This document shows positions 6,293 to 62,382 of a DNA stretch of 64,000 nt, piece after piece. A program made the translations under genes and the position numbers. The notes under the pieces were generated by a model. It was given only the letters and a program-made list of their open reading frames with translations. It was not told the DNA's origin and did not search any database. Source of the stretch: an uncultured Gemmiger sp. (GTDB lineage: Bacteria > Bacillota > Clostridia > Oscillospirales > Ruminococcaceae); contig CALXHQ010000007.1 in the NCBI GenBank assembly GCA_944388145.1, positions 61,789-125,788 on the forward strand, read 5' to 3'. How positions within the stretch are numbered: position 1 is the first letter of the stretch; each line of letters starts with the position of its first letter.

Positions 6293-6341
6293 TTTGAGCG
6301 AAAAACGTGCAACTGCGGAAGATTGACAGGGAGGGTTCCCC

Positions 6342-17974: not shown

Positions 17975-19381
17975 ATGGGTAAATTTGCAGCGGATGCCGA
18001 ACAGCTGCTGAAGCTGGTCGGCGGGAAAGAGAACATTAGTGCCGTGACCCACTGCATGACGCGTATGCGCTTTGTGCTGACAGACCCCGCCAAGGCGGAT
18101 GTGACGGCCATCGAGGCGCTGCCCAGCGTCAAGGGCAGTTTCACCCAGGCGGGGCAGTTCCAGGTCATCATCGGCAACGATGTGGCGGAATTTTTTGACG
18201 AGTTCACCAAGGTTTCCGGCATTGAGGGCGTAAGCAAGGACGCCGCCAAAAAAGCCGCGAAAACCAATCAGACCCCCATCCAGCGGGCGATGGCCAACCT
18301 GGCCGAGATCTTTGCCCCGCTGATCCCCGCCCTGATTGTCGGCGGCCTGATCTTGGGCTTCCGCAGCTTTATTGGCGAGGTGAACCTGTTTGCGGACGGC
18401 ACCCAGTCGCTGGCCGATACCTCCCAGTTCTGGGCCGGCATGTACGATTTCCTCTGGCTGATCGGCGAGGCGGTGTTCCACTTCCTGCCGGTGGCGATCT
18501 GCTGGTCGGTGGTCAAAAAGATGGGCGGCACTGAGGTGCTGGGCATCATCCTGGGCGTCTGCCTGGTCTCGCCCCAGCTGCTGAACGCCTACTCAGTCGC
18601 CACCGCCACCGACATCCCGGTGTGGGATTTCGGTTTCTTCACTGTGGAGAAGATCGGCTATCAGGCACAGGTCATCCCCGCCATGCTGGCCGCCTTCGTG
18701 CTGGTCTATCTGGAGCGCTTTTTCAAGAAGATCACGCCGGAATACATCTCGATGATCGTGGTGCCCTTCTTCTCACTGGTATTGTCGGTCATCATCGCCC
18801 ATACTGTCGTCGGCCCCATCGGCTGGCGCATCGGCGACGCCATCTCCAACGTGGTCTACGCCGGTCTGACCGGCAACCTGCGCTGGATCTTCGCCCCCAT
18901 CTTCGGTTTCCTGTACGCGCCGCTGGTGATCACCGGCCTGCACCATATGACCAACGCCATCGACACCACGCTGGCCAACCAGTTTGAGGGCACCATGCTG
19001 TGGCCGATGATCGCTCTGTCCAACATTGCGCAGGCCTCTGCCGTACTGGCCATGATTGTGCTGCAGAAAAATGAGCGCGACCGCCAGGTTTCCATCCCCG
19101 CCTGCATCTCCGGCTACATGGGTGTCACCGAGCCGGCCCTGTTCGGCGTCAACCTAAAAGCCGGCTTCCCCTTCGTCTGCGGCATGATCGGCTCCGCCAT
19201 TGCCGCCACCATCTCGGTGGGCAGCAGCGTCATGGCCTTCTCGGTGGGTGTGGGCGGCCTGCCCGGATTTTTGTCCATCATGCCCCAGTACTGGCTGCCC
19301 TTCTTTATTTCCATGGGCGTGGCCATCGTGGTCCCCTTTGTGCTGACGCTGATCGTCGGCAAAAAGAAGGGCGTGCACTAA
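17975..19381 (+). CDS. treP: PTS trehalose-specific transporter, EIIBC
   Basis: 468 residues. The EIIB domain (1-85) carries the phosphorylated Cys27 in VTHCMTRMRFVL. The EIIC domain follows, with about ten membrane segments and the family motifs GLHHMTNAID and GYMGVTEPALFGV. It imports trehalose as the 6-phosphate using phosphate from HPr and a EIIA. There is no EIIA domain here or nearby, so a glucose-type EIIA from elsewhere must serve. ATG 17975 has aaggagcg upstream. The phosphotrehalase gene follows 59 bases on. Confidence 0.93.
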   Translation: MGKFAADAEQLLKLVGGKENISAVTHCMTRMRFVLTDPAKADVTAIEALPSVKGSFTQAGQFQVIIGNDVAEFFDEFTKVSGIEGVSKDAAKKAAKTNQTPIQRAMANLAEIFAPLIPALIVGGLILGFRSFIGEVNLFADGTQSLADTSQFWAGMYDFLWLIGEAVFHFLPVAICWSVVKKMGGTEVLGIILGVCLVSPQLLNAYSVATATDIPVWDFGFFTVEKIGYQAQVIPAMLAAFVLVYLERFFKKITPEYISMIVVPFFSLVLSVIIAHTVVGPIGWRIGDAISNVVYAGLTGNLRWIFAPIFGFLYAPLVITGLHHMTNAIDTTLANQFEGTMLWPMIALSNIAQASAVLAMIVLQKNERDRQVSIPACISGYMGVTEPALFGVNLKAGFPFVCGMIGSAIAATISVGSSVMAFSVGVGGLPGFLSIMPQYWLPFFISMGVAIVVPFVLTLIVGKKKGVH

Positions 19382-45611: not shown

Positions 45612-48845
<3,234 letters not shown>

Positions 48846-48849
48846 TGTT

Positions 48850-49971
48850 TCACAGCCCTCCTTTGGCTTGCTTCATCCGCTCCACAAAGCGGTCGAACAG
48901 ATACTCGGTGTCCTTGGGGCCGCCGCTGGCCTCGGGGTGGAACTGCACAGTAAAGCAGTTCCACTTGGTGTAGGCGACGCCCTCGCAGGTTTTGTCGTTG
49001 GCGTTCACATGGCTGACCGCGCCCACATCGGCGGGCAGGGTCTCCCCCATCACCGCGTAGCCGTGGTTCTGGCTGGTGATGAAGGTGCGGCCGGTGGCAA
49101 ACTCGGTGGCAGGCTGGTTGGCGCCGCGGTGGCCGTATTTCAGCTTGGTGGTCTTGGCGCCGGCGGCCAGGGCGGTCAGCTGGTGGCCCAGGCAGATGCC
49201 GAAGGTGGGGATGCCGGTGTCCAGCATCTCGCGGATGTTGTGGATGATCTCCACGTTCTCGGCCGGGTCGCCGGGGCCGTTGGAGAGCATCAGGCCGTCG
49301 GCGTGCAGGGCGGCCAGGTCGGCCGCGGTGGCGGTGCCGGGCAGCACCGTGACACGGCAGCCGCGCTTGCGCAGGCAGCGGACAATATTTTTCTTGCAGC
49401 CCAGGTCCAGCAGCGCCACGTTCAGGGGCTGCTCGCCCTCGGCCAGGCCGCCGGTGGGCTCGAAGGTGGCGGGCTCCCTGCAGGTGACCGAGATCACTGC
49501 GTCGGTGACGGCGTAGGGCTTGATCTCGGCCATCAGGGCAGCCAGCTTTTCGGCATCGGCGCCGGGGTCAAACTCGGTGGTGATGGCGCCGTTCATGACG
49601 CCGCTCTCCCGCAGGATGCGGGTCAGGCGGCGGGTATCGATGCCCTCAATGCCGATGACCCGGTTTTTCTTCAAAAACTCGTCCAGCGTCATCTCGCAGC
49701 GGAAGTTGCTGGGGGCGGTGCAGGCCTCGCGGACGATATAGCCCCTGGCCCAGACGCGGTCGCTTTCCATGTCCTCGCTGTTCATGCCATAGTTGCCGAT
49801 CAGCGGGTAGGTCTGGGTGATGATCTGGCCGTAGTAGCTGGGATCGGTGAGAGTCTCCTCAAAGCCGACCATACCGGTGGCAAACACGACCTCGCCGACA
49901 GTGGTGCCGGGACAGCCGACGCTCTTGCCGGTAAAGACCATGCCGTTTGCCAAAACAAGATATGCGTTCAT
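48850..49971 (-). CDS. carA: Carbamoyl-phosphate synthase small subunit
   Basis: 373 residues. The N-terminal CPSase domain contains MVGFEETLTDPSYYGQIIT and SNFRC. The C-terminal class I glutamine amidotransferase has nucleophile Cys in PTFGICLGHQL and the His/Glu pair in VQFHPEASGGP. It supplies ammonia to CarB. The start follows aagggaagg. It lies 262 bases after pyrE with a hairpin-rich gap. Confidence 0.96.
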   Translation of the reverse strand: MNAYLVLANGMVFTGKSVGCPGTTVGEVVFATGMVGFEETLTDPSYYGQIITQTYPLIGNYGMNSEDMESDRVWARGYIVREACTAPSNFRCEMTLDEFLKKNRVIGIEGIDTRRLTRILRESGVMNGAITTEFDPGADAEKLAALMAEIKPYAVTDAVISVTCREPATFEPTGGLAEGEQPLNVALLDLGCKKNIVRCLRKRGCRVTVLPGTATAADLAALHADGLMLSNGPGDPAENVEIIHNIREMLDTGIPTFGICLGHQLTALAAGAKTTKLKYGHRGANQPATEFATGRTFITSQNHGYAVMGETLPADVGAVSHVNANDKTCEGVAYTKWNCFTVQFHPEASGGPKDTEYLFDRFVERMKQAKGGL

Positions 49972-50233: not shown

Positions 50234-50830
50234 TCACAGCGTCTGCTTTGCCTGCTCTTTCATTTTGCGGCTGCCCAGGTGGACCAGCGGCAGCTTGCCC
50301 TCCTTGCAGATGGGGCATTCCTCGGGCAGGTAGTTGGGCAGGTCCAGCTTGAGGGCGCTGGCCAGGATGGGGATCGGGGACGGGGCCTCGGCGCGGGTGC
50401 GGTCCACCACGCAGACGATGCCCAGGCACTCGCAGCCGGCCTCCTCAATGACCTTCTTGGTCTCAAGGGAGGAGATGCCAGTGGTGACCACGTCCTCGGC
50501 GATGATGCACTTCTCGCCGGGATGCAGGGCAAACCGCTTCAGGGTCATCACGTTGTCCACCCGCTCGGTGAAGATGGCGCGCTTGCCCAGCTGGCGGCCC
50601 AGCTCGTAGGCGTAAACGATGCCGCCCATGGCGGGCCCGACGATGACATCCACATCCAGATCCTTGATCTTGTCCGCCACAACAGACATCACCTCGGCGC
50701 ACTTGTCCGGATACTGCTGCAGATAGGCCATCTGGCAGTATGCGCCGGAATGGCGGCCGCTGGACAGCAGAAAATGGCCTTCCAGGAAGGCTTCGCATTC
50801 TTTCAAAATTTCTTTGGGATCCCTTGCCAT
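50234..50830 (-). CDS. pyrE: Orotate phosphoribosyltransferase
   Basis: 198 residues. GHFLLSSGRHSGAYCQMA, VIVGPAMGGIVYAYELGR and the PRPP motif CIIAEDVVTTGISSLET match PyrE. The C-terminus has CPICKEGK, a Cys pair common in clostridial forms. It converts orotate and PRPP to OMP. The start has gatggaggta. It has its own likely promoter (50898-50927) and may also be read from upstream pyr genes. Confidence 0.95.
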   Translation of the reverse strand: MARDPKEILKECEAFLEGHFLLSSGRHSGAYCQMAYLQQYPDKCAEVMSVVADKIKDLDVDVIVGPAMGGIVYAYELGRQLGKRAIFTERVDNVMTLKRFALHPGEKCIIAEDVVTTGISSLETKKVIEEAGCECLGIVCVVDRTRAEAPSPIPILASALKLDLPNYLPEECPICKEGKLPLVHLGSRKMKEQAKQTL

Positions 50831-51038: not shown

Positions 51039-51944
51039 TCAGCGGGCACAGCCGCGGACCTCGTCCAGGGTGGCCACGCCGTGGGCGTCCATCCACGCGC
51101 CGATCTCGCGGGTGATGCGGGCGCAGGCGCCCGGGTCCATGAAGTTGGCGGTGCCCACCTGTACCAGCGTGGCGCCGGCCATGATGAACTCCAGCGCATC
51201 ACGGCCGGTCAGGATGCCGCCCAGGCCCACCACCGGGATTTGGACGGCGCCCACCGCCTGCCAGACCATGCGCAGCGCGATGGGACGCACCGCCGGGCCG
51301 GACAGGCCGGCAAAGATGTTGTCAAACACCGGGCGGCGCTTTTCCAGGTCAATGGCGCAGGCCTGGAAGGTGTTGCACAGGCTGATGGCGTCAGCGCCGG
51401 CGGCCTCCACCGCCTTGCTCATCTCGGCGATGTCCTCGGCCTGGGGGCTGAGCTTGACCACCAGCGGCTTGGTGCAGCACTTGCGCACGGCCGCGACCAC
51501 GCCCGACGCATCGGCGCAGTGGATGCCGTAGGCCAGGCCGCCCTGCTTGACGTTGGGGCAGCTGATGTTCAGCTCGATGAAATCCACGTCCGTTTCGGAC
51601 AGGCGGCGGGCACCCTCGCAGTATTCCTCCACGCTGTGGCCGCCCAGGTTGGCCCAGGCGGTGGTGCCAAGGCGTTTCATTACCGGCAGCTCATGCTGGA
51701 TGAAGTGGTCCACACCGGGGTTTTGCAGGCCAATGGAATTCATCAGGCCGGAGGGCGTCTCCAGCAGGCGCTCGCCCTTGTTGCCGGGCTGGCCGTTGAG
51801 GGTCAGCCCCTTGCCCGAGATACCGCCCAAAAGGCTCAGGTCCTCGATGGCGGCGTACTCCTCGCCAAAGCCGAAGGTGCCGGAGGCCGCCACCACCGGG
51901 CCGGCCAGGGTCTTGCCCAGGAAATTCACACGCAGGTCGCTCAC
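51039..51944 (-). CDS. pyrD: Dihydroorotate dehydrogenase B, catalytic subunit
   Basis: 301 residues. LAGPVVAASGTFGFGEEYA, SIGLQNPGVDHF, INISCPNVKQGG written as LNISCPNVKQGG (active-site Cys of class 1B), VKLSPQAEDI, and VGLGGILTGRDALEFIMAGATLVQVGT in parts. This FMN enzyme passes electrons to PyrK and then NAD. It starts with GTG whose TGA overlaps the pyrK stop by four bases. Confidence 0.96.
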   Translation of the reverse strand: MSDLRVNFLGKTLAGPVVAASGTFGFGEEYAAIEDLSLLGGISGKGLTLNGQPGNKGERLLETPSGLMNSIGLQNPGVDHFIQHELPVMKRLGTTAWANLGGHSVEEYCEGARRLSETDVDFIELNISCPNVKQGGLAYGIHCADASGVVAAVRKCCTKPLVVKLSPQAEDIAEMSKAVEAAGADAISLCNTFQACAIDLEKRRPVFDNIFAGLSGPAVRPIALRMVWQAVGAVQIPVVGLGGILTGRDALEFIMAGATLVQVGTANFMDPGACARITREIGAWMDAHGVATLDEVRGCAR

Positions 51945-52711
51945 AGCTCAAACACCTCCTCGGCGGGGAATACGGGGCCATCCTTGCAGACGGTCTTGGG
52001 GCCAACTTTGGTGTGGCAGGTGCAGCCCAGGCAGGCGCCCAGGCCGCAGGCCATCTTGTTTTCCAGGCTGGCCAGGCAGGGGGTGCCGGCGGCCTGGCAC
52101 AGTTTGGCCACGCCGCGCATCATCACGCCGGGGCCGCAGGTCAGCACCAGGCCGTAGGCGGCGGGGTCCAGCAGGTCGGTGACCAGGCCGTGGTGCCCCA
52201 CCGCGCCGGTGTCGGTGGCAATGTCGATTTTGGCGCAGTAAGGCTCGAATGCCTCCAGGCCGTAGACCTTGTCCCGGAAGCCCACCATCAGGTCGGGCCG
52301 GCAGCCCGCGGCGGACAGCTCCTTGCAGAGCAGCAGCAGCGGCGCGGTGCCGATGCCGCCGCCCACCACAGCCACTTTGCCGGCTTTAGCGGCGGCTGCC
52401 GCGTCAAAGCCGTTGCCGCAGGGGCCGGTCAGGGTCAGCGTCTGGCCCCAGGCCAGGTGGGCCAGCTTCTGGGTGCCCTCGCCCTTGATCTGGTACAGGA
52501 AGGTCAGGGTGCGCTCCTGTTCGTCCACGTCATGGACGCTGATGGGCCGGGAGAGCAGCGGGCTCTCGCTGGCAGCCCAGGCGCGCAGCATATAGAACTG
52601 GCCGGCATGGGGCATGGGGCCTTCCTGGGGCAGCGCCACGGTCAGGCGGCGGATATCCGGCGCCAGCGCCTTCTGGCGCAGCACACGGACGTTACAGCTT
52701 GTTGCACTCAC
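51941..52711 (-). CDS. pyrK: Dihydroorotate dehydrogenase B, electron transfer subunit
   Basis: 256 residues. FAD domain (LLSRPISVHDVDE), NAD domain (VVGGGIGTAPLLLLCKEL), and a C-terminal 2Fe-2S cluster from CGLGACLGCTC plus VCKDGPVF. It connects PyrD to NAD+. GTG start at 52711 lies inside the end of pyrF (20-base overlap), so the two are translationally coupled. Confidence 0.95.
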   Translation of the reverse strand: MSATSCNVRVLRQKALAPDIRRLTVALPQEGPMPHAGQFYMLRAWAASESPLLSRPISVHDVDEQERTLTFLYQIKGEGTQKLAHLAWGQTLTLTGPCGNGFDAAAAAKAGKVAVVGGGIGTAPLLLLCKELSAAGCRPDLMVGFRDKVYGLEAFEPYCAKIDIATDTGAVGHHGLVTDLLDPAAYGLVLTCGPGVMMRGVAKLCQAAGTPCLASLENKMACGLGACLGCTCHTKVGPKTVCKDGPVFPAEEVFEL

Positions 52712-53552
52712 TCTGGATATCCTCCCTCATACGCACACATTCGTTGTAGGCGGCCTCGTCAAAGGCGACACCGGGCTGCTTTTTCCAGGCCAGCAGGATG
52801 CCGCGGCTGGAGTTGACCACGCCGCCGTTGCCCTGCTTCATGTACAAGGCGATGTCGGCGGCCTTGCCGCCCTGGGCGCCGTAGCCGGGGATCAGGAAGA
52901 AGGTGTCCGGGTAGCGGGCGCGGATCTCGGCGGCCTCCTCGCCGGTGGTGCCGCCGATGACCAGGCCGATGGAGGAGTAGCCCCGCTCGCCCATGTAATC
53001 GGCGCCCAGTTTGGTCATGGCGTCGCCCACCATGGTGTAGACGGTGCGGCCGTCGGCCAGGGACTGATACTCAAAATCCACGCGGCCGGGGTTGGAGGTG
53101 CGGCAGAGCACAAACACGCCCTTGCCCTGGTCCTTGCAGTAGGGCAGGTAGGGGCTGATGGAGTCCAGGCCCATGTAGGGGGCCAGGGTGATGATGTCGG
53201 CCTCGAAATCGCCGGTGAAGTGGGCCTTGGCGTACATCTCGGCGGTCTTGGCGATATCGCCGCGCTTGATGTCGGCAATGACCGGCAGGCCGGTGGCACG
53301 GGCCAGCTTGAGGGTCTGCTGGTAGGCCAGCATGCCGTCCATGCCCAGCGACTCATAGTAGGCGACCTGCACCTTGTAGCAGCCGGCAACGCCCTTGGTA
53401 GCGTCAATCAGGCGGCGGTTGAAGGCCACAATGTTCTCGCCGGCGGTCAGGGCGGTGTCGGTCTCGGGCAGGTAGGAGAGTTCGGTGTCCAGCCCGACGC
53501 AGACGGGGCCGTTTTTCGCAACGCTGTCGTACAGCTTGTCCATGTTTGTCAT
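52692..53552 (-). CDS. pyrF: Orotidine 5'-phosphate decarboxylase, type 2
   Basis: 286 residues. VCVGLDTELSYLPE, YKVQVAYYESLG, PVIADIKRGDIAKTA (the Asp-Lys-Asp active site) and LVIGGTTGEEAAEIR with FLIPGYGAQGG. The size and IKRGDI block mark the longer type 2 PyrF found in clostridia. It makes UMP. Start preceded by gggagatgct. It is 105 bases after pyrC. Confidence 0.95.
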   Translation of the reverse strand: MTNMDKLYDSVAKNGPVCVGLDTELSYLPETDTALTAGENIVAFNRRLIDATKGVAGCYKVQVAYYESLGMDGMLAYQQTLKLARATGLPVIADIKRGDIAKTAEMYAKAHFTGDFEADIITLAPYMGLDSISPYLPYCKDQGKGVFVLCRTSNPGRVDFEYQSLADGRTVYTMVGDAMTKLGADYMGERGYSSIGLVIGGTTGEEAAEIRARYPDTFFLIPGYGAQGGKAADIALYMKQGNGGVVNSSRGILLAWKKQPGVAFDEAAYNECVRMREDIQSECNKL

Positions 53553-53657: not shown

Positions 53658-54854
53658 TCAGCCCGTGAACTCCGGGCTGCGGTAGGTTTCGCGGCCGGCC
53701 TTCATCGTCAGCATGATTTTGCCGTAGAAGCTCTGTCCGTCGTAGGGGCAGTTTTTGCTCTTGGAGTGGAGCTTTTCTGCGTCCACGGTGAACATGTGGT
53801 CGATGTCCACCAGCACCAGGTCGGCGTCGAAGCCGGGGGCGATCAGGCCCTTGGTGGGCAGGTTCATCACGGCGGCGGGGCCGGCGCTCATCAGGGCGCT
53901 CAGGTGCTCCAGCGGCAGGCCGCATTCCCGGCAGAGCTTGGTGTAGCAGACCGCGAAGGCGGTCTCCAGCCCCACCATGCCGGCGGCGCCTTTGGCCTTG
54001 TCCTCGGCGGTGTGGGGGGCGTGGTCGGTGCCGATGCAGCTGACCACACCGTCCCGGATGGCCTTGACCAGGGCGTCCACGTCGTCGGCCTTGCGGATGG
54101 GCGGGTTGACCTTGTACTGCAGGCGGGTATCGTCAAACCACAGGTGGTGGGGGGTCACCTCGCAGGTGACGCGGCCGCCGCGGTACTGGCTTTCCCGGAT
54201 GGCGCGGACGGCCTCCTTGGTGGAGACATGGCACATGTGCAGCCGGGTGCCGTAATACTCGGCCAGGTGGCAGTTGCGCACTGTCTCGATATTCTCAGCC
54301 AGGCGGTAGTCCCAGGGGCTGATTTCCCGGTCCTCGGCGTGGGACATGACCACCAGGCCGCGGTCGGTGGCGATGGCAAAAGCCCGGGCCATAACCGCGT
54401 TGTCCATGACGCCGTTGCCGTCCTCGCTGATATAGCGCAGGTCATCCGGCAGGGTGAGCAGGTGGTCGAGGGTCTTGCCGTCAAAATCCCGGGTGATGGA
54501 GACGCACTGGTTCACGTCGCACAGGCCGATCTCCTTGGCCTTGTCCATCACGCTGTGGGCGATCTCGGCCGAGGAGCAGACCGGCTTGGTGTTGGGCATC
54601 AGGTTGACGAAGGTATAGCCGCCCGCGGCCGCCGCGGCACTGCCGGTGGCGATGTCCTCCTTGTACTCAAAACCGGGGGTGCGCCAATGGCAGTGGGTGT
54701 CGATGAAGGCGGGCAGCACCGTCAGCCCTTTGGCGTCCAGCACAGGCTCGCCCTCCGGCGTGGGCAGGCCGATGCCCACCGCGCGGATGCTGCCGTCCTT
54801 GACCCAGACCTCACAGGGGGCGCCGTTGGCGTCTTTCGCATTTTTCAGGATCAT
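53658..54854 (-). CDS. pyrC: Dihydroorotase
   Basis: 398 residues. PAFIDTHCHWRTPGFEYKED has the metal-binding His-x-His and substrate Arg. LMPNTKP, MSHAEDRE, MCHVSTKEAVRAIR, CEVTPHHLWF and CIGTDHAPH complete the amidohydrolase set. It interconverts carbamoyl aspartate and dihydroorotate. First structural gene of the pyr block. It starts 37 bases after an attenuator-type terminator and has aatggaggaa upstream. Confidence 0.95.
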   Translation of the reverse strand: MILKNAKDANGAPCEVWVKDGSIRAVGIGLPTPEGEPVLDAKGLTVLPAFIDTHCHWRTPGFEYKEDIATGSAAAAAGGYTFVNLMPNTKPVCSSAEIAHSVMDKAKEIGLCDVNQCVSITRDFDGKTLDHLLTLPDDLRYISEDGNGVMDNAVMARAFAIATDRGLVVMSHAEDREISPWDYRLAENIETVRNCHLAEYYGTRLHMCHVSTKEAVRAIRESQYRGGRVTCEVTPHHLWFDDTRLQYKVNPPIRKADDVDALVKAIRDGVVSCIGTDHAPHTAEDKAKGAAGMVGLETAFAVCYTKLCRECGLPLEHLSALMSAGPAAVMNLPTKGLIAPGFDADLVLVDIDHMFTVDAEKLHSKSKNCPYDGQSFYGKIMLTMKAGRETYRSPEFTG

Positions 54855-54891
54855 GCTTTTCCTCCATTTTCCGTACTACCGTCATATGGGC

Positions 54892-54921
54892 AAAAAAAAA
54901 CTTTTCCCCGAAAGGAAAAGT
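54892..54921 (-). terminator. Attenuator of the pyr operon
   Basis: On the leftward strand ACTTTTCC, six-base loop, GGAAAAGT (54921-54900), then nine Ts. It lies between the pyr promoter and pyrC, so read-through is needed for pyr expression. Its first base is the last base of the leader peptide stop. Confidence 0.8.
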
Positions 54922-55007
54922 CAAACAGAAACACCTGCAAAAGGAAACACCGCCGCCATACCGCACTGCAATCCGCTGGAATACCAGAACCGGGAAATAC
55001 GGGTCAT
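54921..55007 (-). CDS. 28-residue pyr leader peptide
   Basis: A short frame, ATG at 55005-55007 and TGA at 54921-54923. AAGGAG (55016-55021) lies eight bases upstream, as strong as the site of any structural gene. It starts MTRISRFWYSSG and ends VFPFAGVSV. The A of the stop is the first base of the attenuator stem, so a ribosome finishing the peptide would cover the left arm. The last part of the mRNA is very U-rich, like the UTP-sensitive pause region of the E. coli pyrBI leader. Inferred role: UTP-responsive transcription-translation coupling. Confidence 0.7.
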   Translation of the reverse strand: MTRISRFWYSSGLQCGMAAVFPFAGVSV

Positions 55008-55066
55008 GGCGGGTGCTCCTTCCTGCAAAATGGCGCAGCGATACCATCGCCGCACAGATTTTTTAT

Positions 55067-55095
55067 AGTTTAACACAGCCGGCCCCTGCTGTCAA
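55067..55095 (-). promoter_or_regulatory. Promoter of the pyr operon
   Basis: Leftward TTGACA (55090-55095), 17 bases, TAAACT (55067-55072). The transcript would start near 55060 and reach the leader peptide ATG within about 55 bases. Confidence 0.65.
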
Positions 55096-55227: not shown

Positions 55228-57324
55228 TTACTGTTCGTTACGCTTGCGCAGGACAACCAGGCCGCAGACAGCACCGGCGGCCACAATGGCCACAACGATC
55301 AGCGCGCCCAAGGGCAGAGAGTCGCTGGTCTGCGGGATGGTGCTGGTGGCAGCAGGCGTTGCAGTGGGCGCAGCGCCCCAGGTGCCGTTGGCAATGCCCT
55401 CGGCAATATCGGGATGCTCGTCCGGGGTCGGGGTACCAGTCACGGTGACCGTGGTGGTCTCGGGGCAGCTGACATAGAACACTGCCTTGTTTGCCTGGCC
55501 TTCAGCGAGGGTCCAACCGGCGGTCGTCTCATTCGCCACATACACAAGCTGGACAGTCCAAGTGGAAGCAGCGCCACTGGCCAAGGTATGGGTCAGGCCG
55601 GTGTTCATGTTATCGTTGTAGTGCTGAACATACGGGTCACTGTTGACTGTGACGGTGGCGGTAGCACCGTTACCCAGCGCATCCGCCTTGGTGGCGTCCA
55701 CTACGACATTATAGCTGTTTTCCAGCAGATCGGTGTGGTCAGTAGCGTGGTTGGCATTGGTGGTGCACTGAACCTCAGCATCCAGCAGAGTATTCAGTTC
55801 ATCGTAGGTGGGGTCAGCGGGGGTCAAAGCCTTAACCTCATAGGAAACAGTGGGCTTCGGGAATTCCATAGAACCTTGTTCACCGGTGGTAGAGGTGTAG
55901 TCCAGCTTGGCCTCCTCATTGGTGGGCACGGTGTAATTGCCAGGGTCGGTCGCTTTGCTGACCAGCTTGACAGTGTAGGTCAGCTGAACCCGATTGGCAT
56001 TCTCAACGGGAGTATTGATTTTCCAAGTGAAAGTCTTGCTGGCGGCATCGTAAGTAACCGTGTAGGGATAGCTACCGTCCGCATTAACATCGCCAAAGTT
56101 GACAGTGTTACCATTATTGTCAACTGTGCGCTTCAACTGATCTTGGCCAACAGTCAGGTTAAAACTGTTGATGTCCGCCAGCTCGAAGTCCTTGTAGATG
56201 GTATCGGTGACGGTGCCGTTCGCAAGTGCATAAATGATATTGCTTTTGACATTATTAAACATACCCGTGGTGTCAGCAGGAACAGCACTAGAGTAGCCGC
56301 CTAAGCTAGACAAGTTTTCGACCCACTTGGGTCCCCAAGGATAGGAAACAGCATAGTCCTGCTCAGCATAAGCGTAGGCATTATAATCAGCCGCAACAAT
56401 ATCCTTCCACACAGTAGCTGCCATATAAACAGCTATGTCATTTGCATTGCCATGCTGTGTCAATTCCTCGCCGGGGATGTAGTCGCCCTCTTTAAAATCG
56501 GCGTTCAGGTAGGTAGAGTCAGCCCCCTGACCTTTTACATCCGGCTGATACTGGCCTTTACCATACACATGCTGATACGTTACTGCGTCTTCACCGTACT
56601 GGGTATGGTTGGTCATCCATACTGCCATATTGCTGAATTCATCATAGTATGCATCAACGTTGGGGTGATGAGCCTGCATCATATCGTTGCCTGCGTTCAA
56701 AGATTCTTCCATATTACCGTTCTGCTCACTGTAAACGGTATAGATGTCGGAACCATCCGCTGTGCGGCCATCGCCCCACAGATAGGTTACGCCATCCGTC
56801 ACAAGAACAAGATGCTTGGCAGCTGCATCAACCGAGGCATCTGCATCCAGCAATTCTTTGCCCGCCTTCAAACCGGCATAAATGTTTGTGCCGCTGGAAG
56901 TTTCGGCCATCAAAGCATTACGGATCGTGTCGTAGCTATCTTCATTCAGCTCAGTAAGGGGGACGCTCTCGTACACCGACTTATTGAATACGACAACGCC
57001 AACCTGGATGCGGTTTTCGCCAACACGGGTCATCAGCTCATCCAGCATTGCGGCAGCAGCCTCACGAATATCAATGCTAACCGACTTATCCAGGACAAAA
57101 ACCACGTCGGAAACAGTTTGATCCTCCTCTGCACCAATAGTAAGAGTTACCTTGGTCTGATCATTTTCATCCAAATCTGTGGCCGTCTTATTAATTGTGA
57201 CACCGTTTTTGGTAACGGGGCCGTTGGTTGTGGTTTCCTCGGCAAACGCCGCCGCGGGCACCATGGCCGCGCACATTGCCAGCGCACAAATGGCGCTGAC
57301 AATGCGCTTTGCTTTCTTTTTCAT
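55228..57324 (-). CDS. Secreted, wall-anchored von Willebrand factor A domain protein
   Basis: 698 residues. Signal peptide 1-28 (basic MKKKAKR, hydrophobic core, AFA-EE). The VWA domain begins VVFVLDKSVSID with MIDAS residues Asp79, Ser81 and Ser83, then SSGTNIYAGL and LVTDG. Beta-sandwich, adhesin-like repeats follow (SVEYxV/VTVTG stretches). The C-terminus is IPQTSDSLPLGALIVV... with an Arg/Lys tail: a sortase-type anchor with Ser where LPxTG has Gly. ATG 57324 follows aagggggaaa. Base composition is lower in GC than the flanking genes. Probable adhesin or pilin-like surface protein. Confidence 0.88.
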   Translation of the reverse strand: MKKKAKRIVSAICALAMCAAMVPAAAFAEETTTNGPVTKNGVTINKTATDLDENDQTKVTLTIGAEEDQTVSDVVFVLDKSVSIDIREAAAAMLDELMTRVGENRIQVGVVVFNKSVYESVPLTELNEDSYDTIRNALMAETSSGTNIYAGLKAGKELLDADASVDAAAKHLVLVTDGVTYLWGDGRTADGSDIYTVYSEQNGNMEESLNAGNDMMQAHHPNVDAYYDEFSNMAVWMTNHTQYGEDAVTYQHVYGKGQYQPDVKGQGADSTYLNADFKEGDYIPGEELTQHGNANDIAVYMAATVWKDIVAADYNAYAYAEQDYAVSYPWGPKWVENLSSLGGYSSAVPADTTGMFNNVKSNIIYALANGTVTDTIYKDFELADINSFNLTVGQDQLKRTVDNNGNTVNFGDVNADGSYPYTVTYDAASKTFTWKINTPVENANRVQLTYTVKLVSKATDPGNYTVPTNEEAKLDYTSTTGEQGSMEFPKPTVSYEVKALTPADPTYDELNTLLDAEVQCTTNANHATDHTDLLENSYNVVVDATKADALGNGATATVTVNSDPYVQHYNDNMNTGLTHTLASGAASTWTVQLVYVANETTAGWTLAEGQANKAVFYVSCPETTTVTVTGTPTPDEHPDIAEGIANGTWGAAPTATPAATSTIPQTSDSLPLGALIVVAIVAAGAVCGLVVLRKRNEQ

Positions 57325-57555
57325 TTGGTTTCCCCCTTGTAAAGAGTATATGGCTGCCCGGGCGGACAGCCGCCGATTCGGCAGGCGGACAAAACCGCCT
57401 GCTTTTCCGTTTTCTTCCCCTGCCGGCGGCCAGCACATTCCGCACAGACAAAGTTCTGAATCCGGACACAAGTGAAACGGCATTTGAATTCCGTTTCGCC
57501 AAAAACTCCGCTTTCCCCGGATTTTGGTCCGGTAAAGCAGAAATTTACATTTCAT

Positions 57556-60669: not shown

Positions 60670-60757
60670 CAAAATTTCATACGATGAATCTCGTCCCAGC
60701 GACGATTTTCATACATGTGCGGTTGTAGCTCAGCTGGATAGATCGTTCGGCTCCGAC
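60670..60757 (+). repeat. Direct repeat copy 2, with intact tRNA-Arg 5' half
   Basis: Partner of the repeat at 60454-60541. It continues into the complete tRNA. Confidence 0.85.
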
Positions 60758-60795
60758 CCGAAAGGCCGCAGGTTCGAATCCTGTCAGCCGCACCA
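60719..60795 (+). tRNA. tRNA-Arg (anticodon CCG)
   Basis: 77 bases. The acceptor stem GCGGTTG / CAGCCGC has one G-U. The anticodon stem TTCGG / CCGAA has loop CTCCGAC, giving anticodon CCG. The T arm is GCAGG-TTCGAAT-CCTGT, and CCA is encoded. The D stem (GCTC/GATC) has one mismatch. A strong terminator follows. An integrase gene is 415 bases downstream, so the tRNA is probably the attachment site. Confidence 0.95.
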
Positions 60796-61209: not shown

Positions 61210-62382
61210 TTACAACCCCATCACCTCCCCCAACTTCTCCTGCGCATCCCGCTTCTTCTTGTCGAACGCATGGGCATAAATGTCCAGCGTTGTACTGGCC
61301 TGGGAATGGCCCAGCAGACTGGCTACTGTCCGCACATCTACGCCCTGGGCAATCAACAAACTGGCGTTCGTGTGCCGAAGGCTGTGTACATTCAGATTTT
61401 CCGGCAGGCCGCTCTGGCGCAAGATCTTCTTGAAGCGGAATGTGAAGGTGGTCGGCACCATCGGGTCGCCGCTGGGCTGGCGAAACAGGTAGTCATCTTC
61501 CTGTAATATCTCATCATTCTGTTTGCGATCCCACGCGCATTGCTGCTTCCACGACTTCAATAATTTAGCCATTTCCTTGCTGACATACACCACCCGGTCA
61601 CCGCTGGCCGTCTTGGGCGGCTTCACGAAGATGGGTTCGTGGCTCAGTTTTACCACATTGCGTTGCACATGGATGCTGCGCTTCTTCCAGTTAATGTCCG
61701 ACCACCGCAGCCCGCAGGCTTCGCCCCGGCGCATCCCGGTAGCCAGCACCAGTTTGAAGTAGGTCTCGTATTTGAGGCTTTGCCCTTCCAATGCGGCAAT
61801 CAATCGCTGTACCAGTTCTTCGTCCGCCACCGGGCGCTCCTTCTTTTCGCCTTGCGGTTTGTACATTTTCCAGGCCGGGTTGTGTAACAAATACCCTTCC
61901 TCCACCGCGTCACTCAAGATGCTGCACAGGGTGTTGTGGATACCTTCCACCGACTTTTCGGCAAGCGGCTTCCCGTCGGTCAATTTGGGGGCCTTGCGCA
62001 TTTCCTCGTAAAAATTCCGGATGACCTCCTTGCGTAAATCAGTGAGCTTGTAGTGCCCCAGCGCAGGCAAGATACGCCGCACATCCTGCCGGTCACGGAA
62101 ATAAGTGGTTTTCGCCAGTTTTTTCGGTGCCACCTCTGCCAGCCAGTGGTCGATGTATTTTGCCAGTGTGATGCTCTTGTTCACCGGCTCAGGAGTGTGG
62201 TGTACCTCCCGCTCGAACAGCACCGCCTGTTCCTGTAACCATTTCTCGCGTTGTTTCGGTTTTAGTTCCACCGGTGGATGTACTGTTTTCTGCACCGATT
62301 TCAGCCGGTTACCCTCATAGTCGTACCCGCGGGACACCACGATCAAATAGCTATTCTCTCCCCGTTTGCGAATGGATGCCAT
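61210..62382 (-). CDS. int: Tyrosine site-specific integrase
   Basis: 390 residues. N-terminal AP2-like arm-binding domain (MASIRKRGENSYLIVVSRGYD), SAM-like core-binding domain (ITLAKYIDHWL...), and catalytic domain with Arg in TGMRRGEACGLRW, His333-Arg336 (HSLRHTNASLL), His359 (LGHS) and nucleophile Tyr369 (LDIYAHAF). It resembles Tn916/phage-type integrases. It points toward the tRNA-Arg, the usual order for an integrated element. The start has agaaaggacg. Confidence 0.93.
   Translation of the reverse strand: MASIRKRGENSYLIVVSRGYDYEGNRLKSVQKTVHPPVELKPKQREKWLQEQAVLFEREVHHTPEPVNKSITLAKYIDHWLAEVAPKKLAKTTYFRDRQDVRRILPALGHYKLTDLRKEVIRNFYEEMRKAPKLTDGKPLAEKSVEGIHNTLCSILSDAVEEGYLLHNPAWKMYKPQGEKKERPVADEELVQRLIAALEGQSLKYETYFKLVLATGMRRGEACGLRWSDINWKKRSIHVQRNVVKLSHEPIFVKPPKTASGDRVVYVSKEMAKLLKSWKQQCAWDRKQNDEILQEDDYLFRQPSGDPMVPTTFTFRFKKILRQSGLPENLNVHSLRHTNASLLIAQGVDVRTVASLLGHSQASTTLDIYAHAFDKKKRDAQEKLGEVMGL

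Follow-up and report, generated by a model that had tools for sequence, protein, structure and literature searches.

The pyr operon and its leader

Seven pyrimidine genes lie in one direction, in the order pyrC-pyrF-pyrK-pyrD-pyrE-carA-carB, on the minus strand of the window, by which we mean the whole 64-kb stretch of DNA that was analysed. Before pyrC there are, in order, a promoter, a Shine-Dalgarno (SD) site, an open reading frame (ORF) of 28 codons and an intrinsic terminator (Table 1). The names pyrF, pyrK, pyrD and carB are presumed from general knowledge without a family search, and pyrE presumably from such knowledge together with its position. Named relatives of the window sequence place it in the genus Gemmiger or adjoining it; Gemmiger formicilis belongs to the NCBI family Oscillospiraceae, class Clostridia. 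On the 5' side of the pyr promoter, at 55228-57555 of the minus strand, a large ORF looks by eye like a surface protein of the von Willebrand factor A kind, with a sorting signal at its C-terminus. A tRNA gene at 60719-60792, followed by a tyrosine-recombinase-like ORF at 61210-62382, marks a possible integrated element, again judged by eye.

Table 1. Positions of the leader elements and the pyr genes in the window
Feature	Position	Strand	Basis
Promoter, TTGACA (55095-55090), 17 nt, TAAACT (55072-55067)	55067..55095	-	consensus scan
SD core AAGGAG of the leader ORF	55016..55021	-	sequence
Leader ORF, 28 codons and TGA, MTRISRFWYSSGLQCGMAAVFPFAGVSV*	54921..55007	-	translation; frame kept in 38/38 distinct leaders
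First of two U-rich tracts, GTGTTTCCTTTT, proposed to delay RNA polymerase	54939..54950	-	sequence; pausing role putative
Second U-rich tract, directly 5' of the stop codon	54924..54931	-	T fraction across 38 leaders
Intrinsic terminator, stem ACTTTTCC..GGAAAAGT (54921-54900) and nine Ts (54900-54892)	54892..54921	-	overlap with stop codon conserved
GCCC immediately 3' of the T run, conserved	54888..54891	-	counts in relatives
pyrC, dihydroorotase, first structural gene, start 54854	53658..54854	-	NCBIfam TIGR00857 over cut-off
pyrF, orotidine-5'-phosphate decarboxylase (presumed)	52692..53552	-	ORF; homologue 3' of pyrC in relatives
pyrK, dihydroorotate dehydrogenase electron-transfer subunit (presumed)	51941..52711	-	ORF
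pyrD, dihydroorotate dehydrogenase (presumed)	51039..51944	-	ORF
pyrE, orotate phosphoribosyltransferase (presumed)	50234..50830	-	PF00156 match at site; ORF
carA, carbamoyl-phosphate synthase small chain	48850..49971	-	PF00988 match; ORF
carB, carbamoyl-phosphate synthase large chain (presumed)	45612..48845	-	ORF

How closely are the leader ORF and the terminator joined? The TGA stop codon occupies 54923-54921, and its last base, A54921, is the first base of the stem, its partner being the T that opens the tail; the terminator scan extends the stem by one outer G.T pair, at 54922. The window leader folds better than its own shuffles (z -3.3), and an SD-led ORF ending at the stem arises by chance in 2.1% of dinucleotide-preserving shuffles. 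Of 204 terminator-like sites scanned in 864 kb of the same genome, three have a short SD-led ORF with its end at most 3 nt from the stem: the pyr leader, a TTG ORF of 13-14 codons (L150) and an ATG ORF of 55 codons (L153). The latter two are candidate sites, on the plus strand near 19049 and on the minus strand near 6317 respectively. No leader of the stem-base form was seen in the window's genome before upp or before pyrB, which lies apart from the operon (locus L135, contig C24 of G000).

The sequence after the T run is conserved. GCC follows it in 35 of 38 distinct leaders and in 12 of 19 chosen from other genera, compared with 41 of 530 runs of six or more Ts in 800 kb of the window's genome. 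The GCCC might base-pair with the terminator's 3' arm.

Conservation in Gemmiger and its neighbours

A full-length pyrC match was obtained in 32 of the 35 genomes of the genus, the window's own counted, and 30 of those loci were taken for comparison. The leader frame ends on the stem in all 30, with TGA in 28 and TAG and TAA in one each. When named genomes were added, Fournierella massiliensis (L088) among them, the set comprised 38 distinct leaders of 24 to 29 codons, 35 starting with ATG and three with GTG. Both the frame and the stop/stem overlap are kept in 38/38 (TGA 34, TAA 3, TAG 1), a count to be read with the kinship of the leaders, which are related by descent within a genus, so that neither codon nor frame counts are independent. 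The letters of the stop codon vary, its position does not. Gemmiger formicilis ATCC 27749 (L061) has this arrangement too. In 58 close pairs of leaders the differences are spread over the three codon positions at 30/32/39%, and the peptide is thus hardly constrained. Promoter hexamers similar to those of the window lie 5' of the relatives' leaders as judged by eye, and SD-like sites precede the leader starts, with poor spacing in L086 and L088.

Some leaders were handled individually. L029 is omitted from the 38, as a 300-nt cut had removed its start. L014 and L015 were missed by the leader pattern and entered by hand, L057 and L058 were likewise missed, and the starts of L018, L022, L083, L085, L086 and L088 were assigned by hand. 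In Faecalibacterium sp. RGIG4595 (L085) the spacer between the leader with its terminator and the pyrC match is unusually long.

The first-pass annotation of this DNA had described the promoter, the 28-codon frame with its AAGGAG site, the hairpin with nine Ts, pyrC after it and the sharing of one base by stop codon and stem. All of these were recovered in that order on the minus strand, and the comparison of relatives, which it had proposed as a check, found the frame conserved together with the hairpin. Its remark that the mRNA before the terminator is U-rich also agrees with the counts that follow.

U-richness and codon choice

In the last 45 nt of the window ORF the T fraction is 0.42, a value reached by 0.3% of 45-nt segments drawn from the 268 coding sequences called in 400 kb of the same genome. 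The mean over the 38 leaders is 0.377, compared with 0.188 (sd 0.066) in the segments of these coding sequences. The T content of the leaders is highest between -35 and -31 relative to the stem; the tract of the window lies about 6 nt nearer, which reflects an alignment gap. Across the 38 leaders T also makes up 0.57-0.59 of the last 10 nt 5' of the stem, a stretch that takes in the stop codon. In the window's own terminator the 5' arm together with the loop has a T fraction of 0.5, a maximum among the 204 terminator-like sites that it shares with two others.

Codon choice follows the same direction. T-ending codons are strongly enriched for Pro (CCT 24/55, background 9%), Val (GTT 39/90, 11%) and Gly (GGT 50/102, 13%), and more weakly for Ala (GCT 18/117, 10%) and Phe (TTT 106/148, 56%). 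The peptide does not explain such a synonymous shift, strong in three amino acids and weak in two, which suggests selection on the U tracts at the nucleotide level. In several leaders a conserved hairpin (GGTGC..GCACC) was suspected by eye about the first of these tracts; the alignment fold gave only five pairs, those of the terminator, and we do not claim it.

Terminator search across the family

The terminator pattern alone, with neither a leader nor a pyr gene required, was used as query against 297 genomes of the family (126 genera). It matched in 24 genomes of 10 genera, at one site per genome, and every one of the 24 sites lies directly 5' of pyrC (19) or pyrB (5). The pattern starts with an A where the stop codon ends, a bias towards TGA and TAA but not towards pyr genes; some of the 38 leaders come from six of these 24 genomes. 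Stop codon and stem share one base, the last of the former and the first of the latter, in 22 of the 24, and the stop abuts the stem in the other two, both of g105, as judged by eye with one site confirmed in the shuffle test. An earlier pattern starting with TGA matched in 28 of the 35 genomes of the genus and in none of 26 others, and a related pattern gave 0/226 in genomes from 25 other families of the order. Between genera the leader peptides are unrelated; the frame, the position of the stop and the U-richness persist. In 16 divergent leaders from 13 genera, chosen by hand, an SD-led ORF ends at the stem in 15, compared with 1-4% of shuffles; the SD spacing of the g37 leader is poor.

A pyrC at least 47% identical to that of the window occurs in 47 genomes of the family, and the survey of these covers the 24 pattern genomes, G008 (a variant stem, L015) and 22 examined upstream. 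Diverged stems are still overlapped at the base in g134 (3), g105 (1), g50 (4), g56 (1) and g49 (1, before pyrB). The stop lies within the hairpin in g73 (4) and g71 (1), and the ORF runs through the terminator, as E. coli pyrL does, in g102 (L236) and g112 (L235). In L225 the stop is about 12 nt 5' of the stem, L233 ends at a contig edge, and no leader was seen upstream in L230, L232 and L237, three of these 47 genomes. In total 35 leaders end at the stem base (overlapping or abutting), five inside the hairpin and two beyond it, i.e. 42 of 47. L230 (g148) and L232 (g140) are pyrB-led operons that have the window-type pyrC and no recognisable leader attenuator.

PyrR and the type of pyrC

According to a 2026 review (PMC13328217), pyr operons of Gram-positives are taken to be controlled through regulators such as PyrR. 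Is there such a regulator here? No gene of the window's genome passes the PyrR cut-off (best match E 2.5e-4). Eight Pribosyltran matches were found in it; four were classified (hpt, apt-like, upp and xpt), one is pyrE by position, and the uracil phosphoribosyltransferase is upp. PyrR over the cut-off was found in 0 of 35 Gemmiger genomes, some of them incomplete, versus 12 of 26 others, and in none of the 11 leader-bearing named genomes, at least five of which repeat the Gemmiger set. Across the family 120 of 297 genomes have it: 0 of the 24 pattern genomes versus 120 of the 273 others (Fisher p 3e-6 by genome and 0.001 by genus, from listings compared by hand and with relatedness ignored). 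The PyrR RNA motif (RF00515) gave no Rfam match in the window or the leader, a weak test which found the motif in one of five PyrR-bearing control loci. Within these bounds the first-pass annotation was right in noting neither a pyrR gene nor a PyrR-binding motif.

Loss of PyrR alone does not predict the leader, because no stem-base leader, the only form sought, was seen at 18 loci with the other pyrC type (L238-L255), all from genomes without a PyrR match. The type of pyrC itself tracks the regulator, as none of the 47 genomes with the window-type pyrC is among the 120 with PyrR (compared by hand). The window-type pyrC is about 50% identical to the pyrC of Clostridium, which there, as judged by eye, lies 3' of pyrB and a pyrI-like ORF, so the operon may have been exchanged.

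Distances between stop codons and terminators

In B. subtilis, RNA polymerase outruns the ribosomes and terminators lie a few nucleotides from stop codons, a short distance serving as the published proxy for this runaway transcription (PMC7858274). In 800 kb of the window's genome, 62 of 571 genes called with a home-made gene caller have a terminator within 150 nt of the stop. The distance is under 12 nt in one of the 62 and within 15 nt in six, with a median of 44. In Clostridium-type pyr loci (17 related loci) it is under 12 nt in 11 of 24 cases (p 1e-6), and in a small E. coli sample (90 kb) in one of nine. By this distance proxy the window's genome appears not to be of the runaway kind. 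The overlap of leader stop and terminator breaks the spacing rule of its own genome.

Discussion

What does the leader do? Probably it attenuates the de novo pyrimidine operon in a translation-coupled, UTP-responsive way, working like E. coli pyrBI and most likely sharing no descent with it. Read from the DNA, the locus has a translatable leader ORF, a stop codon on the terminator base, U tracts in the ORF and in the 5' arm, and no PyrR that we could find. We infer pausing, UTP dependence and the direction of control, the sensing of UTP from base composition and gene context. With abundant UTP, RNA polymerase would cross the U tracts fast and the first ribosome would lag behind, so that the terminator would fold and the transcript would end before pyrC. 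When UTP is scarce, the polymerase would hesitate at the U tracts and the leader ribosome would close up; on reaching the stop codon it would cover the stem's 5' arm and keep the hairpin from folding, and the polymerase would continue into pyrC-F-K-D-E-carAB. The delay of the polymerase would thus set whether a ribosome is present in time, and the leader peptide would be a by-product.

One step of this scheme has a counterpart in E. coli. When a stop codon that lay 28 bp ahead of a terminator was brought to 5 bp, termination fell from about 90% to under 10%, and the effect was abolished when the upstream gene was not translated (PMC4824070). Because a nearby stop lowers termination there, a ribosome at the leader stop would be expected to block the hairpin. 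UTP is the likely quantity measured because the U tracts lie in the leader, as they do in pyrBI.

The likeness to E. coli pyrBI and its leader pyrL extends to an SD-led leader ORF, an intrinsic terminator and a long U tail followed by pyr genes. The U-rich tract of pyrL codes for FFFP, that of the window leader for VFP, and VFFP is found in 19 of the 38 leaders; GCCC after the U tail is common to both (U8-GCCC in pyrL). The first-pass annotation had held that E. coli pyrBI uses exactly such coupling. The coupling of leader and terminator stands; the exactness does not, as PyrL (135 nt with its stop, annotated in K-12) reads across its terminator to a stop just ahead of pyrB, whereas the window ORF stops on the stem base. 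The two differ further in the U-rich terminator arm and in the operon pyrC-F-K-D-E-carAB found here. By eye there is no sequence relationship to pyrL beyond composition, and convergence with pyrBI is the most likely relation. E. coli pyrBI is also known for UTP-dependent start-site slippage; the first transcribed bases vary among the relatives here, and a slippage of that type forms no part of our reading. As for the annotation's reading as translation-coupled attenuation, the conserved frame and stop/stem overlap support it, and the sensing of UTP would be its more conjectural part.

Other known systems are less alike. PyrR-dependent attenuation in Bacillus shares terminator-based pyr control in Bacillota, but the leader here is translated, and neither the PyrR gene nor its motif was found. 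The trp, his and phe leaders share a short translated leader before a terminator; here the terminator is at the stop codon, and not, as there, more than 20 bp away (PMC4824070). The His leader peptides of bacilli, which Naville and Gautheret (2010, PMC2965389) presented as new in Firmicutes, for his genes, likewise replace another regulator; they carry a stretch of His codons, in which the window leader differs.

Might the same anatomy respond to another signal? The leader could report general translation capacity, that is ribosome supply or initiation rate, in which case UTP would have no particular role. What the anatomy strongly supports is only the occlusion of the hairpin by a ribosome (PMC4824070), and work on EF-P found that ribosome progress governs termination at the pyrL hairpin (PMC5021804). 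Against general capacity stand the occurrence of all 24 pattern sites at pyr operons and a U bias carried by synonymous codons and the terminator arm, and we regard this reading as unlikely. A sensor of the nascent peptide, which would arrest the ribosome in response to a small molecule, has in its favour the VFFP of half the leaders and variants of it in several more. Such a sensor calls for a conserved peptide, but the peptides are unrelated between genera and show little excess of third-position changes within close pairs, so that we give it only a slim chance.

Amino-acid attenuation, with Phe codons as the sensor for example, seems very improbable. Phe makes up 14.6% of leader residues versus 3.7% in background genes. 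Against this, the operon makes pyrimidines and the leader has no run of codons for an amino acid linked to it; Gly, Pro and Val codons are shifted to T-ending forms as well; in amino-acid attenuators a gap of more than 20 bp separates leader gene and terminator (PMC4824070); and no competing antiterminator was noticed, in weak tests where the alignment fold recovered five terminator pairs. It is just as hard to credit an ordinary stop beside an ordinary terminator, without regulation, as in organisms with runaway transcription. B. subtilis and the Clostridium-type pyr loci do have such short distances, but the window's genome has one in 62, and the stop keeps its position across genera before pyr genes. 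That a PyrR-type attenuation was missed by the searches, as the width of PyrR in the family and the low recovery of its RNA motif in controls might allow, is the least credible reading of all, given 0/35 Gemmiger genomes over the cut-off, a best E of 2.5e-4 in the window's own and a uracil phosphoribosyltransferase that is upp.

We return to the pyrBI-like attenuator. Full-text searches, in which subscription journals are mostly not covered, and the titles listed yielded no earlier report of such an element, so this would be a stem-base form of pyrBI-type attenuation that we did not find described before. On balance we lean, by a narrow measure, to the wider proposal that a PyrR-less clade of Clostridia evolved, independently of E. 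coli, a UTP sensor based on a race between ribosome and RNA polymerase, in which a ribosome that terminates at the base of the stem keeps the terminator from forming. Attenuation through coupling is not expected where RNA polymerase runs away from the ribosomes. This objection is weakened because only one of 62 ordinary terminators in the window's genome lies under 12 nt from a stop.

The finding suggests that a protein-free sensor takes the place of a PyrR-like regulator in one gut clade, and it offers a natural test of transcription-translation coupling outside the Proteobacteria. If the proposal is true, it requires close coupling of transcription and translation in these Gram-positives, which goes against the runaway view derived from B. 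subtilis, and the graded stop positions, at the stem base, inside the hairpin and in read-through, would record how such switches evolve.
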